Positions 11,690 to 17,598 of a stretch of DNA of 26,639 nt are shown here, in pieces. The first letter of the stretch is position 1; each line of letters opens with the position of its first letter. Source of the stretch: Blastocladiella britannica (taxonomy: Eukaryota > Blastocladiomycota > Blastocladiomycetes > Blastocladiales > Blastocladiaceae); NCBI GenBank assembly GCA_025349905.2, contig MU624746.1, positions 1 to 26,639 of the forward strand, given 5' to 3'. The position numbers were made by a program, and so were the translations under genes. The notes below the pieces were generated by a model. It was not told where the DNA came from and searched no databases. It worked only from the letters and a program-made list of their open reading frames with translations.

Positions 11690-13306
11690 ATGCCAATCCC
11701 GTACGTACCCACAGTTACCTTCCGAATCAGGTGATATTCTCAAGCAGATGTATCTCCAGATCATCGTCTCTTTCCTCGCCGCAGGATCGCAGCGAGTCGC
11801 TGCCTTGCTTTTCACACATTATCGTTCTCGCCGGTTCCCCGGATCCTGATCTTGTAGATCCAAACATTCTCTTGTATGTCCAAACTCATTCCCTCTCCCA
11901 TTCGCCAACTCATTGGTTTGGACTATTGTAGGACACATGAATTTGATCGAAATGACACGCTCTCCAATGTCACGGCGGTCCTGGAGCAGTACATGGCGAA
12001 ATCAAATTGGAATCAGCTGAAGGACAAGGGACCACAAGTCACAGTCCAGCGCGTGATCTTGCGCGACTGGCCCACGATCCTCGCAACTCTGATCGAGCTG
12101 CGTGCTACATTGGCGGCGGCCATCCCCGTGTCAGACTTGCGCACACTGCCGCTCCTCGTGTTCAACCTGTGCGACGGGTCGGAGCTGGACGGGTACCCGG
12201 GGGGCACGGTGCCCCAGTCACTGGAGGAGAACCGGTTCGTATTTACTGGTTCCATGGCGTCGTTTTACGCCATCACGACGCCCAAGACGTTGCTCAAGAC
12301 CTACCTCCAGCACGCGCACGTCCCAACGTCCGAGTTCGTGTACATGAACCTGGCTACGCTGGACCAGGACGCCAACAGCGCCCATGCGCTGCTGGGATCG
12401 CCCGTGATTGTGAAACCCGATGTTTCTTACGCCAGCCTGGGGATCACGTCCACGTCCGTGACGCGGTCGCCCGCAGAGACTGCAAACCAGTCGCGGCAGA
12501 TTCTCGCCGAGTTTCCACTGGCCGGGTGCTTTGTGGAACGGTTTTTGCCTGGCCGCGAGTTTACCGCGCTAGTATGTGGCCACTACGAAATGGGAACCGA
12601 GGGAAAGGGCGGCGTGCAAGTGTACCCGGTGGCGGAGCGTGTCTTTCGTGAGGGACTTGTTGCCGAGGAACGGTTCTTGGCGTTTGACCGGTACTGGGAT
12701 GGCACGCTTTTTTTTTTTTTTTTCGTTGGATCCTTGACCAATTATGTATTTACTATAGGATGGACAATCGAGGGCGATCGGCCTCCTGCGGATACACCTG
12801 GGTATTACAAGTACGAGCATGCCCCAATGGCATGGCAGCAGAAGCTCATGCAAGTTGCTTTGGACGCCTATGTTGGTAACGTCTCCCTATCTACGTTTGC
12901 TCTCTCTATTCAATAACTCACACGCATCCCCTACCATATGGCGGCGGCTATTAGCATGCCATGGTACAGGATACGGTCGCGTGGATATGCGCACCATGTC
13001 GACCGAAAAATGCGATGTATTTGTGCTCGAGGTCAACGCCAACTGTGGCCTGACCTTTGACGAGACATCGTCCCTTGGCGAGGTATTGTATTCTGGATCC
13101 CACCATTTCATGCAACTAAACTCACTTCAAAAGAAATTGATCAGATCCTGCGACTGTCAAAGGTCGATCCCATGCGATTTTTGTCCGACATTATCGTCCA
13201 ATCGCTGGAGCGCGCGTCGGTGATGCCAAATCTTGGCCGCGACGACTCTGCTCGCGAAGCACTCGCTCAGTCCAAACAAGTCGCTGCACCGATCCAGGAA
13301 ATTTAA
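11690..13306 (+). CDS. ATP-grasp ligase (D-Ala-D-Ala ligase-like), substrate unknown, 6 exons
   Basis: This 428-residue protein has an ATP-grasp fold resembling D-alanine-D-alanine ligases; such ligases join a carboxylate to an amine via an acyl-phosphate. Exons: 11690-11700, 11760-11873, 11932-12701, 12759-12875, 12970-13082, 13145-13306. Visible blocks are HIIVLAGSPDPD at the N-terminus, LLVFNLCDGSELDGYPGG, FTGSMASFYAITTPKTLLK, VIVKPDVSYASLGIT (ATP lysine), CFVERFLPGREFTALV, GYGRVDMRT and FVLEVNANCGL (Glu/Asn metal ligands). The first exon encodes only MPIP and is inferred from a strong GTACGT donor and a 59-nt intron. The intron at 12702-12758 has no GT donor in frame; a GC-AG intron removing a T16 run is my choice. 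The real substrate is unknown. It faces the AdoMetDC fusion, with only 18 bp between the stop codons. Confidence 0.82.
12708..12723. repeat. T16 homopolymer
   Basis: These sixteen thymines lie in a segment that would encode a phenylalanine run if translated. Long T runs elsewhere in this window are intronic, which favours this one being inside a 57-nt intron of the ATP-grasp gene. Confidence 0.75.
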
Positions 13307-13331
13307 ATATACAATTTAAATATATTACTGG
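13301..13331. terminator. Shared bidirectional 3'-end element
   Basis: The two stop codons are 18 bp apart (TAA ending 13306, TAA complement starting 13325). The spacer and the stops lie in an imperfect tandem repeat of ATTTAAATATA (two copies), which contains the palindrome ATTTAAAT. AT-rich signals here probably serve 3'-end formation in both directions. Confidence 0.5.
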
Positions 13332-14985
13332 ACTTTATCCGACATCCAGAAGAGGGACATGCCTCCGAATGACCGCATGTACGCCGTCCATTCTTGGAGC
13401 CCCGTGAACCCGATACGCGCCCACTGTCCGCGCACCTCGTCAAAGAACGGTTCGTACTCTTCCTCGACGGTGTTCATCTGCTGCACAATGCGGCCGCCCG
13501 ATCGCAACAACTTGTGCGCGTTGCCGTAAAACTCCTCGGTGTACAGGACCGCGGACGCGAGCTGAGTCTGGTCGGTGCAGTCGACAATCACCAAATCGGA
13601 CGATCCGGGCTCGACGCCGGCGGCCGGCAGGTCCGCGAGCCACTTGCCCGCATCGGCAAATGTCCAGTGCACGCGCGGGTCCGAGAACGACGAGTGCTCG
13701 CCCTCCGGCGCAAAGAAAGCGCGCGTGAGCTGCGCGACCTGCTGGTCAATGTCGACGATGCGAATCGACGCGATCTCGGACCCGTAGTGGTCGAGCAAGT
13801 GGCTAGCGACCCACCCGTCGCCGCCACCAATGATGGTCACCGTGAGCTTGCGGTCGCTGGCGCGTGCCGCGGGCAACACCGCCGCCACCGCCCGATCGGC
13901 AATGTTGGCGGTGTAAATGTCGTTGTCCTCGGTGCAAAACTGCACCACGCGGTCCAGGAGCATGCAGCGGCCGAGCGTGTTGGTGTCGACAATCTCGATG
14001 CGCTGGAATGGCGACTGCACGTCGGCGTGGATGCGCGCGGCGCGCAACAGCAGGCAGTCGTCGTCGGGGGTGTCACCATTGACGCAAATGTCCATGACCG
14101 TCGGCTCGTGCGACTCGGGTAGGCCCGACTTGGTCATCACCTCGATCGCATCAGCGTGGGCAACCACCAGCGGCGCGTGCGGCTTGGCCGTGTCCTCGGA
14201 CTCAGATGGCGAGGCCTGGGCGGCCGCAACAGGCGACTCGCCCGGGGCCGAGGTAACAACCGTATCCGTCACAATGTGCTCCACTTGCTCCGACGGCGGC
14301 GGAAGAATCGAAAGATCGCCCTGGTTGACGGTCGACGCGAGATGCCGGTCAGCGCCGCGGTCGAGGTACGTGTGCCGCACCGCCTTGGGCTTGAGCAGCG
14401 ACTTGAACTTGTCCACAATGTCCTCGGGCTTGCCGGCGCCGCACGTGTACACGTCGAGAGCCATGAACCCGTGCTCGGGCCATGTGTGGATGCTGAGGTG
14501 GCTCTGTTTTGATAATTTTGTAAGAAAGTGGTCTCACCAACTCCAGCGAAAAACATATAAAATACCTCGGATAGCAAAAAGGTGGCAGTAATGCCTCCGC
14601 ACTCAAAGTGATGGGCCGACACATCCAGCACGGTCATCCCAGCGTCGGTAATGTACTTTGAGATCTCGGAAAGCATCGAAGGATCCTCCATGAATCGAAT
14701 GCGGTCCATCGAGACGCCGTACATGTCCACCATGTGGTGCTTGCCGGTAGGGAGGTGGTTTTGGGCAATGGCGGCCATGTCGCACTTGATTCCTGGCCGC
14801 TTGCTCCATGCATTGCGAATGGCGAACGCTGCGGGCTTGATGGTCGAGGAGAAAAAAAGGTTGATGGCAATGCCCGACAAGAGGAGGCCAATGACGAGAG
14901 CGAGCGACCGGCGCTCGTTCCAGTACCGCAGCGGCATGGTGATCGAGTTGCGGCGGGTGGAGAGGAAGGATTTGGGCGTTGACAT
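13325..14985 (-). CDS. Membrane-anchored fusion: bacterial-type S-adenosylmethionine decarboxylase + spermidine synthase
   Basis: This 532-residue bifunctional protein predicts two consecutive steps of polyamine synthesis: SAM decarboxylation, then aminopropyl transfer from decarboxylated SAM to putrescine. Exon 1 is 14985-14566 (140 codons) and exon 2 is 14503-13325. Residues 27-47 form a hydrophobic anchor after an Arg-rich stretch. Residues about 80-190 are a prokaryotic-type SpeD domain with SESHLSIHTWPE and DVYTCG: Ser141 (pyruvoyl precursor, cleavage after Glu140), His146 and Cys161 are all present. An acidic, Pro/Ser-rich linker spans about 191-300. The aminopropyltransferase domain runs about 303-532: SPFQRIEIVDT, LDRVVQFCTEDNDIY, IIGGGDGW (366-370), RIVDID, VDCTDQT (catalytic Asp448) and YTEEFYGNA. 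Usual eukaryotic AdoMetDC is a different, longer form, so the SpeD part suggests ancient bacterial origin. Aminopropyl donor use is known; amine acceptor is inferred. Confidence 0.93.
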
Positions 14986-15433
14986 GTTGTTGTTTATGAT
15001 ATTGATCTTTTTTTATGCAGAGTCGGCCAGCGAATCTGCGAAATGTAGGTAATTTCCAACAGGAAATGAAAAAAGGGCGAGGGAATTGCAAGGGCTTTTT
15101 GAAGCAGCAACCTGCTCGACCTGAGTGGCTCCTTCCGGTCTTACCTTTTTTTCACCATGGCTTCATATCTTGAAATTCGCATATGGCATGATTGGCTGGG
15201 GTCATTGCATTTAATAATTTTACCGAACCACTCAAAATGTCAAAAATTGAAGGAGGCGAGTGTGGCGTTTGAAATTCATGGACAAATTTCCACCACAACC
15301 TGCTCATTTCCAGCCAACCATACATCGGCACAGAAAAACCTGGTTTAAATACGTGCTGTGATCCTCCGACCACGCGTGGATTCCTTAAAAAGTCAACCCT
15401 TGCGCCGGCCGCAATACATCCAACTTGTAAATA
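14986..15433. promoter_or_regulatory. 448-bp divergent promoter of the two polyamine-fusion genes
   Basis: Both genes start outward from this spacer, so common regulation is plausible. On the minus-strand leader a strong donor (GTAAGA, read at 15144 downwards) and acceptor (TTTCGCAG ending at 15035) frame a possible 5'-UTR intron of about 110 nt, and two tiny upstream ORFs lie just before it. On the plus strand an ATG in a good context (ACCATGG, 15157) opens a 63-codon frame ending at 15348, before the main ATG at 15434; it has no recognisable family. AT-rich stretches (TTTAATAATTTT, TTTAAATACG) may include core promoter elements. Confidence 0.5.
15141..15166 (-). promoter_or_regulatory. Two overlapping mini upstream ORFs before the AdoMetDC fusion
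   Basis: Reading the minus strand, ATG at 15166 opens MKPW followed by TGA (15166-15152), and an overlapping ATG at 15158 opens MVKKR followed by TAA (15158-15141). They lie about 170 bp upstream of the main start. Small upstream ORFs controlling translation in response to polyamines are known for animal and plant AdoMetDC mRNAs. Whether this leader is transcribed this far is not visible. Confidence 0.3.
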
Positions 15434-17598
15434 ATGACAATGCAAACGCCCTCCAAGTCCATTTCGCTCCTCAATATCCTCGTGGCTACTGCCGCCGTGA
15501 CAGCTGGCCTGCTCCATAACGCCGGCGTCCTTACTGTTTCATTCAATGGATCAGCACTCTCAACAACCGCGCCTCCTACTGCAGCTCCTCAGCGTGATGT
15601 CTCAGCACACAAGGACTGCCTCGTCGTGAGCGGCACCCCGCAGCTCTGCCCCTCGGACGAGCGCATGTGGTCCGAGAGTCTGACCCACCCGTCCATTCTC
15701 TGGCGTATGTGTAACCTTTTCATAAATTCCATCAATAAGAAAACTAAAAAATACGAAAAAATGAGACAGACCCATCGCCTCGACGTGTTTTGGTTGTTGG
15801 TCCACTCGGGCCGGCACTGGTCGCAGAGTCGCTCCGCCATTTCACGCTCTCCGAGGTTGTCTGGGTGTCGGGCTCGTCGGTTCCCAGCGCTGCCACCACC
15901 AGCTACTTTGACCTCGACACGCTCCCGGCCGCCGGCAAGGGCAACGCGACGCACAATTTCACGTACGACGGAGTGCACGATGTCCTTGGCCGCGTCAAGG
16001 TTGTCCACGACGACTTGGCGCACTACCTGGCGGGACTCGACGAGAATGCCAAGTTTGACGTGATATTGGCCGACCAACTGACCACGCCGGACGTGACGGC
16101 CCACATGGATCGCGTCAGCTCGGCGCTCGCCCCAGGTGGTGTCTTGAGCATGGCCGTGACGACGGAAAACGACGCGCTCCTGGCAATTGCCCAGCGGTTC
16201 AAGCGCGTCCAAATCGGCGAGCAGCATTTGCCGGCTGTGGGCAAGCGCGTTCTGTACGTTATACGTTACTTTTTGTCTCATTTTTGCTTGGTCTCACAAC
16301 CAAAATTACAAAAAAAAAGATTCTACTATGCAACCAACACGGACCTGCACCTCGCGCACCAGAGCATGTCCCAGGAATACGTCAATGGCCTCATCCGCCG
16401 ACGCATCTTTGACGGCGCCGAGGATCTCGACCACTACGACGGCGAGATGCACGCGCGGCTCTTTTCGCTCCCGCTCGGGCTTCGCAAGCAAGTGCGCAAG
16501 ACGGTGGCCAAGGGAGTGGCCACCAGCACCATCGATCGCGCGTCCGTATCGTATGCGCCCTCGCGCTACGCCGCCGAAATGGAGGCCGTTTCGGTGCCCG
16601 GGGTGACCCTGTGGCGCGACTATTTCGGATGCGACGAGGAGGTGCTGGCCGAGTCGGACGACATGCTCGATGCCATCAAGCGCGGTCTGGAGCTATCGCA
16701 CACCAAAATTGTGACCATTGAGGACATGGCGACCGACGACGACGCCGACAGGGCCCGGATTGCGGCGGCCCACATTGACGGCACGCCCGCGGTCGGCGTG
16801 ATTGTGTCGGCGGTGCTTGCCGACGGCCACTTGACCGTGCGCACCTACCCGTCGCTCGGGTACGCGGCCGCCGAGTACACGTCGTACACGGACGGCACCA
16901 GCACCGCGCCCGAGGAGGTGCTGGGCCTGATTGGCGAGGAGATGGGCGCCAAGCGGATTGCGGGCCACGCGATCCCGCGCGGCCAGCTTGCTCCCAGCGC
17001 ACCGGCGACCGTGAGCCACTGGTACCACGGCAGCGACTACTACATGAGCCCGAAAGTGCTTGGCCGCAAGTCCCCGACGGCGGGGCGTGGGCAGTTTGCC
17101 GGCGCGGCCATCAAGAAGGGCGAGATCATGTTCCAGGGCCCGATCGAGACATACCTTCGGCACGAGGCCGACATTCTCGCCATGCCCAAGTGGCGGCAAA
17201 AGTTCATTGACCACATGGGCGAGCAGGCCGAGGACGACATTTGGATCTCGCCGCCGCTGTTTGACGAGGACCCGTCGTACTGGACCAACCACAACTGCAA
17301 CGCCAACCTGGTGTACACGAGCTACGACACGATGGTTGCGCGCCGCGACATTGCCGAGGGCGAGGAGCTCACGTTTGACTATGCGACGGCCGATTCCGAG
17401 CCCCGGCCCATTTTTAAGTGCAACTGTGGGGCGCCAACGTGCCGCGGGGAGGTGCACGGCAACGACTGGATGCGCGACGATGTCGTCAACAATTACGGCG
17501 CCGAGGCCTTTTGGCCGCACATTCGCAAGAAGATTCTGATGCACAAGGCCGGCCTGCCGGTGGCGTCGATCCTCGATCCGTCGTACGCTGAGGAGTGA
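15434..17598 (+). CDS. SpeE-like / SpeD-like / SET-domain fusion protein (predicted pseudoenzyme plus methyltransferase)
   Basis: This 677-residue protein has exons 15434-15704, 15770-16253 and 16320-17598. A hydrophobic segment at about 11-35 suggests an anchor or targeting peptide. Residues about 62-240 resemble an aminopropyltransferase core (SDERMWSESLTHPSILW, RRVLVVGPLGPALVAESL, KFDVILADQ, LAPGGVLSMA), but the GGGDGG loop is replaced by GPLGPA and the N-terminal barrel is missing. Residues about 346-472 resemble bacterial AdoMetDC (RDYFGCDEEVL, LADGHLTVRTYPSLGYAAAE, GAKRIAGHAIPRG), but the pyruvoyl Ser, processing His and catalytic Cys positions are Gly421, Arg426 and Tyr441. Residues about 490-630 form a SET domain: GRGQFAGAAIKKGE, TNHNCNANL (574-582), GEELTFDY (599-606, Tyr606) and post-SET CNCGAPTCRG (619-628). 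The SET part looks active, the rest regulatory. Function is inferred. Confidence 0.9.

Follow-up and report, generated by a model that had tools for sequence, protein, structure and literature searches.

What might a fungus gain from an apparently live polyamine enzyme that stands head to head with a fusion in which both polyamine modules are degenerate? The question is raised by contig C207 of Blastocladiella britannica (Blastocladiomycota), the 26,639 bases of which form the window, i.e., the whole stretch of DNA analysed; the assembly comprises 15.26 Mb in 624 contigs. Gene A of this window encodes a fusion of S-adenosylmethionine decarboxylase (AdoMetDC, the SpeD module) and aminopropyltransferase (the SpeE module). 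The divergent gene B encodes SpeE-like and SpeD-like modules followed by a SET domain. Gene C, tail to tail with A and 18 bp from it, encodes an ATP-grasp protein. On sequence grounds, A, B and probably C are tentatively proposed to be a cluster coding for enzymes of bacterial type, which would aminopropylate an acceptor amine and N-methylate it.

An apparently live and a doubly dead fusion

The initial annotation described a divergent pair with a 448-bp spacer, in which A consists of an anchor, an AdoMetDC and an aminopropyltransferase with intact catalytic residues. This is borne out by splice models, Pfam matches and motifs. The splice models of both genes match the NCBI proteins, apart from the final residues of B (Table 1). 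The AdoMetDC module of A scores 95.7 bits with PF02675 (cut-off 25) and 102.1 bits with TIGR03330, above the equivalog cut-off of 75.65, and the processing residues Ser141, His146 and Cys161 are all present. The processing serine of the T. maritima AdoMetDC is S63, as given in the title of structure 1tmi. The ESH motif occurs in 12 of the 14 A-group rows, the remaining two being models that start downstream of it. The other T. maritima reference residues are His68 and Cys83.

The aminopropyltransferase module of A scores 70.2 bits with PF01564 (cut-off 22.9) and 25.3 bits with PF17284 (cut-off 22.1). It retains the GGGDG motif (366-370) for decarboxylated S-adenosylmethionine (dcSAM), the catalytic Asp448 and Tyr337. 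Its score with the NCBIfam equivalog is 125.2 bits against a cut-off of 260, too low to assign a substrate. The YHE found in 15/15 bacterial transferase rows is replaced by YT-x in all 14 A-group rows, and the C-terminus is shorter than in the bacterial rows by a median of 49 residues. These two features suggest a changed acceptor site. With the whole chain, Foldseek returns human spermine synthase as the best match, itself a fusion of an AdoMetDC-like and a transferase domain (324 residues aligned, root-mean-square deviation 13.4). Mean identity among A orthologs is 73% in SpeD (four sequences) and 64% in SpeE (five sequences). The anchor segment is present in 9 of the 11 A proteins examined, and the other two gene models begin late.

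Three protein searches were made, with approximately 8,000 candidates scored in each. Besides B. britannica, orthologs of B are found in B. emersonii, Catenaria, Sorochytrium and Paraphysoderma, all of them Blastocladiomycota. A Pfam scan of B finds SET, AdoMet_dc (PF02675) and Spermine_synth only. The AdoMetDC match reaches 34.9 bits with PF02675 (cut-off 25) but 31.5 bits with TIGR03330, below 75.65, and the SpeE-like part lies above the Pfam cut-off in P0125 and below it in P0001. The initial annotation had staked its reading of B as anchor, SpeE-like, SpeD-like and SET parts on hidden Markov model (HMM) and structure searches. Both polyamine folds were found in the SET protein, through profile comparison with clean controls and through structure matching.

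The degeneracy of these two modules, likewise proposed at first, is seen as residue loss in 5/5 orthologs. In the SpeD-like module, the processing serine is replaced by glycine and the histidine by arginine, and the stretch holds no cysteine; the module is read as inactive for decarboxylation. The SpeE-like module has lost the GGGxG dcSAM motif and is likewise read as inactive; all five still have an Asp in line with the catalytic residue (D192). Both dead modules also keep their fold and length throughout, together with several invariant residues (GHxTxR, and DHYDG or EHYDG), Physodermatomycetes included. Mean identity among the B orthologs is 42% in the dead SpeE, 41% in the dead SpeD and 70% in SET, which is the best conserved part. 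It looks, from these sequences, as if B is under constraint as a methyltransferase that carries a scaffold. The NCBI name “putative protein serine/threonine kinase” is attached to two B orthologs (P0002 and P0004), in neither of which the Pfam scan finds a kinase.

The SET domain of B scores 36.6 bits with PF00856 (cut-off 22.4) and is one of 16 SET matches on 15 contigs across the genome. Its best single-sequence match in the PDB is BurB (1.3e-7 over 75 residues), with only the core and post-SET aligned. BurB is described in PMC12542666 as a SET-fold methionine S-methyltransferase acting on a free small molecule. The B domain bears on whether SET domains methylate small molecules other than the methionine of BurB.

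The initial annotation also looked to relatives for co-occurrence, and this holds: in 5/5 species with B, A lies on a contig of equal size (26639, 561733, 753298, 521420 and 432824). Since the sizes are equal, A and B very probably share one contig in all five species. Head-to-head adjacency is observed in the B. britannica window only. Chytrids (among them Spizellomyces, Cladochytrium, Fimicolochytrium and Lobulomyces) have A-type proteins, with no B among the candidates of each search, a result that does not prove absence.

Elsewhere in the B. britannica genome, the eukaryotic AdoMetDC (PF01536) is a separate gene on contig C480, and a strong spermidine synthase is found on contig C2 (E 4.6e-66). 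With these two genes, ordinary spermidine would not require A. Class 1b AdoMetDC matches occur in A and B and nowhere else in the genome. Contamination was rejected, as the genes contain introns, eukaryotic genes lie on both sides and orthologs occur in four further species. The canonical AdoMetDC (C480:5797-7224) has one TGA within a matched stretch, which may mark an intron. A weak aminopropyltransferase-like match, the third in the genome, lies at C68:15725-16096.

Table 1. Positions of genes A, B and C and of their modules in the window.
Feature	Position	Strand	Details
Gene A, SpeD-SpeE fusion, 532 aa	14985-13325	-	exons 14985-14566 and 14503-13325; intron 14565-14504; identical to NCBI protein P0005
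A N-terminal hydrophobic segment, predicted membrane anchor, residues 27-45	14851..14907	-	Kyte-Doolittle 2.31; helix 18-48 in structure model
A class 1b AdoMetDC, residues 83-190	14354..14739 (intron included)	-	AdoMet_dc 2.6e-27; Ser141, His146, Cys161
A aminopropyltransferase, residues about 291-530	13334..14053	-	GGGDG 366-370, Asp448; acceptor side altered
Spacer separating A and B start codons	14986..15433		448 bp
Gene B, anchor + SpeE-like + SpeD-like + SET, 677 aa	15434-17598	+	exons 15434-15704, 15770-16253 and 16320-17598; introns 15705-15769 and 16254-16319; NCBI P0001
B N-terminal hydrophobic segment, predicted membrane anchor, residues 9-27	15458..15514	+	Kyte-Doolittle 1.93; in 5/5 orthologs
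B dead aminopropyltransferase, residues about 62-313	15617..16503 (two introns included)	+	GPLGP in place of GGGDG
B dead AdoMetDC, residues 343-475	16591..16989	+	Gly in place of Ser, Arg in place of His, no Cys
B SET + post-SET, residues about 500-629	17062..17451	+	SET 6.6e-9; MLL1 SET 1.8e-11; NHNC, ELTFDY and CxCGx3CR kept 5/5
Gene C, D-Ala-D-Ala-ligase-like ATP-grasp, 410 aa	11876-13306	+	introns 12702-12758 (GC-AG, assumed), 12876-12954 and 13083-13144

Gene C and the bacterial ATP-grasp-SET proteins

The two-gene picture drawn at first is incomplete, as the neighbouring gene C was overlooked. By its sequence, C resembles the ATP-grasp of D-Ala-D-Ala ligases. On a splice model with one assumed GC-AG intron, it scores 39.5 bits with PF07478 (cut-off 24) and 63.8 bits with NCBIfam NF002378, against a cut-off of 243, and so counts as ligase-like without being assigned as a ligase. 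An ATP-grasp gene at this place suggests biosynthesis, and not sensing alone.

A D-Ala-D-Ala-ligase-like ATP-grasp is joined to a C-terminal SET domain in bacterial proteins of approximately 500 aa, in 5/5 of those scanned (L128, L129, L131, L134 and L135). An HMM built on the ATP-grasp part of these proteins gives gene C 102 bits. When L129 is compared with the whole fungal genome, the SET domain of B ranks first (1.5e-15), followed by gene C (2.7e-12) and by an ATP-grasp on contig C217 (4.4e-9). L128 gives the same ranking (1.2e-14, 1.4e-6 and 3.7e-5). The two halves of the bacterial protein thus match the B SET and gene C best, and in the fungus they are split over two genes that flank A. 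The chance of two independent best matches falling within 5.4 kb of 15.26 Mb is about 7e-4 by an arithmetic estimate. Such proteins are also found at L136-L143. Of eight bacterial neighbourhoods of ATP-grasp-SET proteins, a second ATP-grasp of this kind occurs in 3/8 and another SET gene in 4/8. A literature search found no paper on bacterial ATP-grasp-SET proteins.

Proposed function and its competitors

In the proposed pathway, A would make decarboxylated SAM and then transfer its aminopropyl group. The acceptor may be an unusual one, because A departs from its relatives on the acceptor side and ordinary spermidine can come from the separate spermidine synthase and eukaryotic AdoMetDC. B may dock to A through its dead SpeD-like or SpeE-like part, since these families dimerise. 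The SET domain of B would then methylate the aminopropylated product and not a histone. It is possible that A and B act at a secretory membrane, and C may join an amino acid or a similar acid to the amine.

A wider version of this proposal is doubtful. It holds that C-A-B is a horizontally assembled cluster, kept through Blastocladiomycota, that makes a not yet observed N-methylated, amino-acid-capped long polyamine at a secretory membrane. In this arrangement, A would build the chain, B would be a pseudoenzyme scaffold docked on A with SET as the polyamine methyltransferase, and C would add the cap. The cluster would then be a fungal counterpart of the diatom silaffin-polyamine machinery, with another gene layout.

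Several observations weigh against the proposed pathway. The SET of B is also histone-methyltransferase-like: the profile of the five orthologs matches the MLL1 SET (1.8e-11) better than BurB. Its affinity to the SET genes beside bacterial SpeD-SpeE is unspecific, at 93 and 69 bits versus 73 bits to the ATP-grasp-SET proteins. The SET part is poorly predicted in the structure model of B, and the sequence of B gives no sign of contact with A. As for gene C, the estimate of about 7e-4 is partly post hoc, the matches of C and B having been known before the genome-wide test. A second ATP-grasp copy of the same type (C217:24289-24738) scores not far below C. SpeD or SpeE stands beside a bacterial ATP-grasp-SET gene in 0/8 neighbourhoods, five of these eight proteins being those that built the HMM. 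Lastly, no segment of C looks like an anchor (Kyte-Doolittle at most 1.59), and C may sit in another compartment than A and B.

Of the competing explanations, the one that survives best, while still rather unlikely, is by analogy with the trypanosomatid prozyme. The dead B might hetero-oligomerise with A and switch on its AdoMetDC or its transferase, with SET as a passenger or regulator. Dead paralogous modules do accompany a live enzyme here, and the two co-occur in 5/5 species. The live AdoMetDC of trypanosomes is activated by a dead paralogue (PMC5201418), and human spermine synthase depends on its dead AdoMetDC domain for dimerisation and activity (PMC12803844). Unlike the prozyme, B falls in PF02675 and carries SpeE-like and SET parts in addition. 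The prozyme family, PF01536, is not the one to which B belongs. Three further findings speak against an activating role. Chytrids show A without B among the candidates searched, so A-type proteins can apparently work alone; conservation within B is highest in SET and lower in the dead modules; and there is no special closeness between the SpeD modules of B and A.

Two further readings of B are unlikely. In the first, it methylates lysines of proteins and uses its dead modules as sensors of SAM, dcSAM or polyamine. The post-SET and core motifs are as in histone methyltransferases, and the MLL1 match is in line with this. The dcSAM motif is lost in 5/5, however, so the SpeE-like pocket is unlikely to bind dcSAM. 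The predicted membrane anchor also argues against such a sensor, and so does BurB, the top single-sequence match in the PDB, which acts on free methionine.

In the second, B works as a SET enzyme and nothing more, its dead modules being relics or spacers from a bacterial fusion that was acquired, and A makes ordinary spermine or thermospermine. The fast divergence of the dead modules (41-42% identity) would fit, and A is similar to the spermine-making AdoMetDC-transferase fusions of bacteria described in PMC12803844 and PMC11107197. This is countered by the fold, length and invariant residues kept in both dead modules of all five orthologs, and by an acceptor side of A that deviates from both spermine and spermidine synthases.

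A sulfonium chemistry, in which the B SET would methylate free methionine like BurB and the products would enter an AdoMetDC-like and aminopropyl-like reaction, is very unlikely: BurB is the top single-sequence match, but the alignment is limited to core and post-SET and the five-ortholog profile ranks MLL1 higher.

Known counterparts and origin

The predicted aminopropylation and N-methylation by the fungal cluster has its nearest described counterpart in diatoms. There, an AdoMetDC and an aminopropyltransferase of bacterial origin, in some cases joined to a histone N-methyltransferase domain, were proposed in 2011 to make and N-methylate long-chain polyamines (Michael 2011, as cited in PMC3820600). 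Diatom AdoMetDC-aminopropyltransferase fusions are likewise cited in PMC6356823. A and B share with the diatom fusions the same three modules and the bacterial-type AdoMetDC class, as described in PMC3820600, and an N-terminal targeting segment. They differ in the fungal host, in the two divergent genes (one live, one with both modules dead) and in the ATP-grasp neighbour; the likeness is one of description and not of diatom sequence. To our knowledge, Blastocladiella is not a silica former. In diatoms the targeting segment is a signal peptide, and forms with a dead AdoMetDC are reportedly described in Michael 2011 (FEBS Lett 585:2627). As a culturable fungus, Blastocladiella offers a small test case for what such polyamine-SET fusions, predicted for diatoms in that year, do.

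The animal spermine synthase is an acquired bacterial AdoMetDC-SpmSyn fusion, according to PMC12803844. It has the domain order and overall fold of A. A differs from it in the kept AdoMetDC residues, the anchor, the altered acceptor side and the shorter C-terminus. The pairing of a live fusion with a doubly dead one that bears a conserved methyltransferase is a natural pair in which to ask how pseudoenzymes persist as scaffolds.

Bacterial fusions hold the same three domains as B in one chain. Among the 120 listed of the 209 matches of A, two (P0031 and P0086) carry SET-SpeD-SpeE, with the catalytic motifs present. A genome scan for relatives (the best 80 of 260 loci) lists four loci that extend into SET: L009 (Flavobacteriales), L010 (Planctomycetales), L011 (Rhodohalobacter) and L012 (Verrucomicrobiales, which ends at the contig edge). 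In 4/4 of these genomes, the fusion is the only PF02675 match. It is rare, with 2 of 345 sampled genomes in the phylum of G001 (G001 and G003, both already known). Unlike B, these fusions have the reversed order and intact catalytic motifs, and no anchor segment is seen in them by eye.

The novelty claimed at first stands in part. The literature search found no report of the SpeE-SpeD-SET order in fungi. We know of none either. The polyamine-SET fusion as such is of a known kind, through the diatom proposal (as cited in PMC3820600) and the bacterial SET-SpeD-SpeE. The fungal pair, its doubly dead member, the conservation within one phylum and the ATP-grasp neighbour are not described so far in the literature searched.

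The initial annotation saw A and B as built from the same two modules. Both folds are indeed shared, but B is no simple dead copy of A. The profile of its SpeD is closer to bacterial SpeD (3.3e-13) than to the SpeD of A (4e-4), and the SpeD tree splits the 11 rows of A and the 5 rows of B into two clades, each with support of 100/100. A recent duplication of A into B is not favoured for these reasons. As the branch to B has a length of 5.37, the SpeD tree does not place B. Whether B descends from the bacterial SET-SpeD-SpeE is undecided, given that the domain order differs and the fusion is rare in sampled genomes. Two exact-pattern scans of viral contigs, made with a viral source in mind, found relatives of neither B nor the bacterial fusion.

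Direct descent of B from a planctomycete SpeD-SET (L014) is not supported, as the SET parts are far from the B SET (19.3 and 3.1 bits). The two have in common the SpeD-SET order and a His-to-Arg change. The full fusion of the L014 type is found, among 294 genomes sampled in that phylum, in G006 itself only. At L014:4613-8564, the genes stand in the row SpeD-SET, SpeE-like, SpeD-SET and SpeE. In the first SpeD, ESH and TCG are intact and HTWP has become RTYP; in the second, HTWPE is intact and ESH and TCG are missing, as if the two were complementary.

Two of the SET-SpeD-SpeE loci (L009:5950-9194 and L011:5962-9294) continue with a second small SET and then a conserved part without a Pfam family. 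This part is separate in L009 and fused in L011, with 56% identity between the two. When the small SET protein of L009 is compared with the fungal genome, the B SET is the best match (3.8e-14). Gene C has no useful likeness to the third open reading frame of these loci (best BLASTP E 0.15). A resemblance of those frames to ATP-grasp is visible by eye only; the ATP-grasp HMM misses them and Pfam finds no family in them. A further arrangement is seen in P0118, a 921-aa metagenome protein, in which two transferase domains are followed by an AdoMetDC domain.

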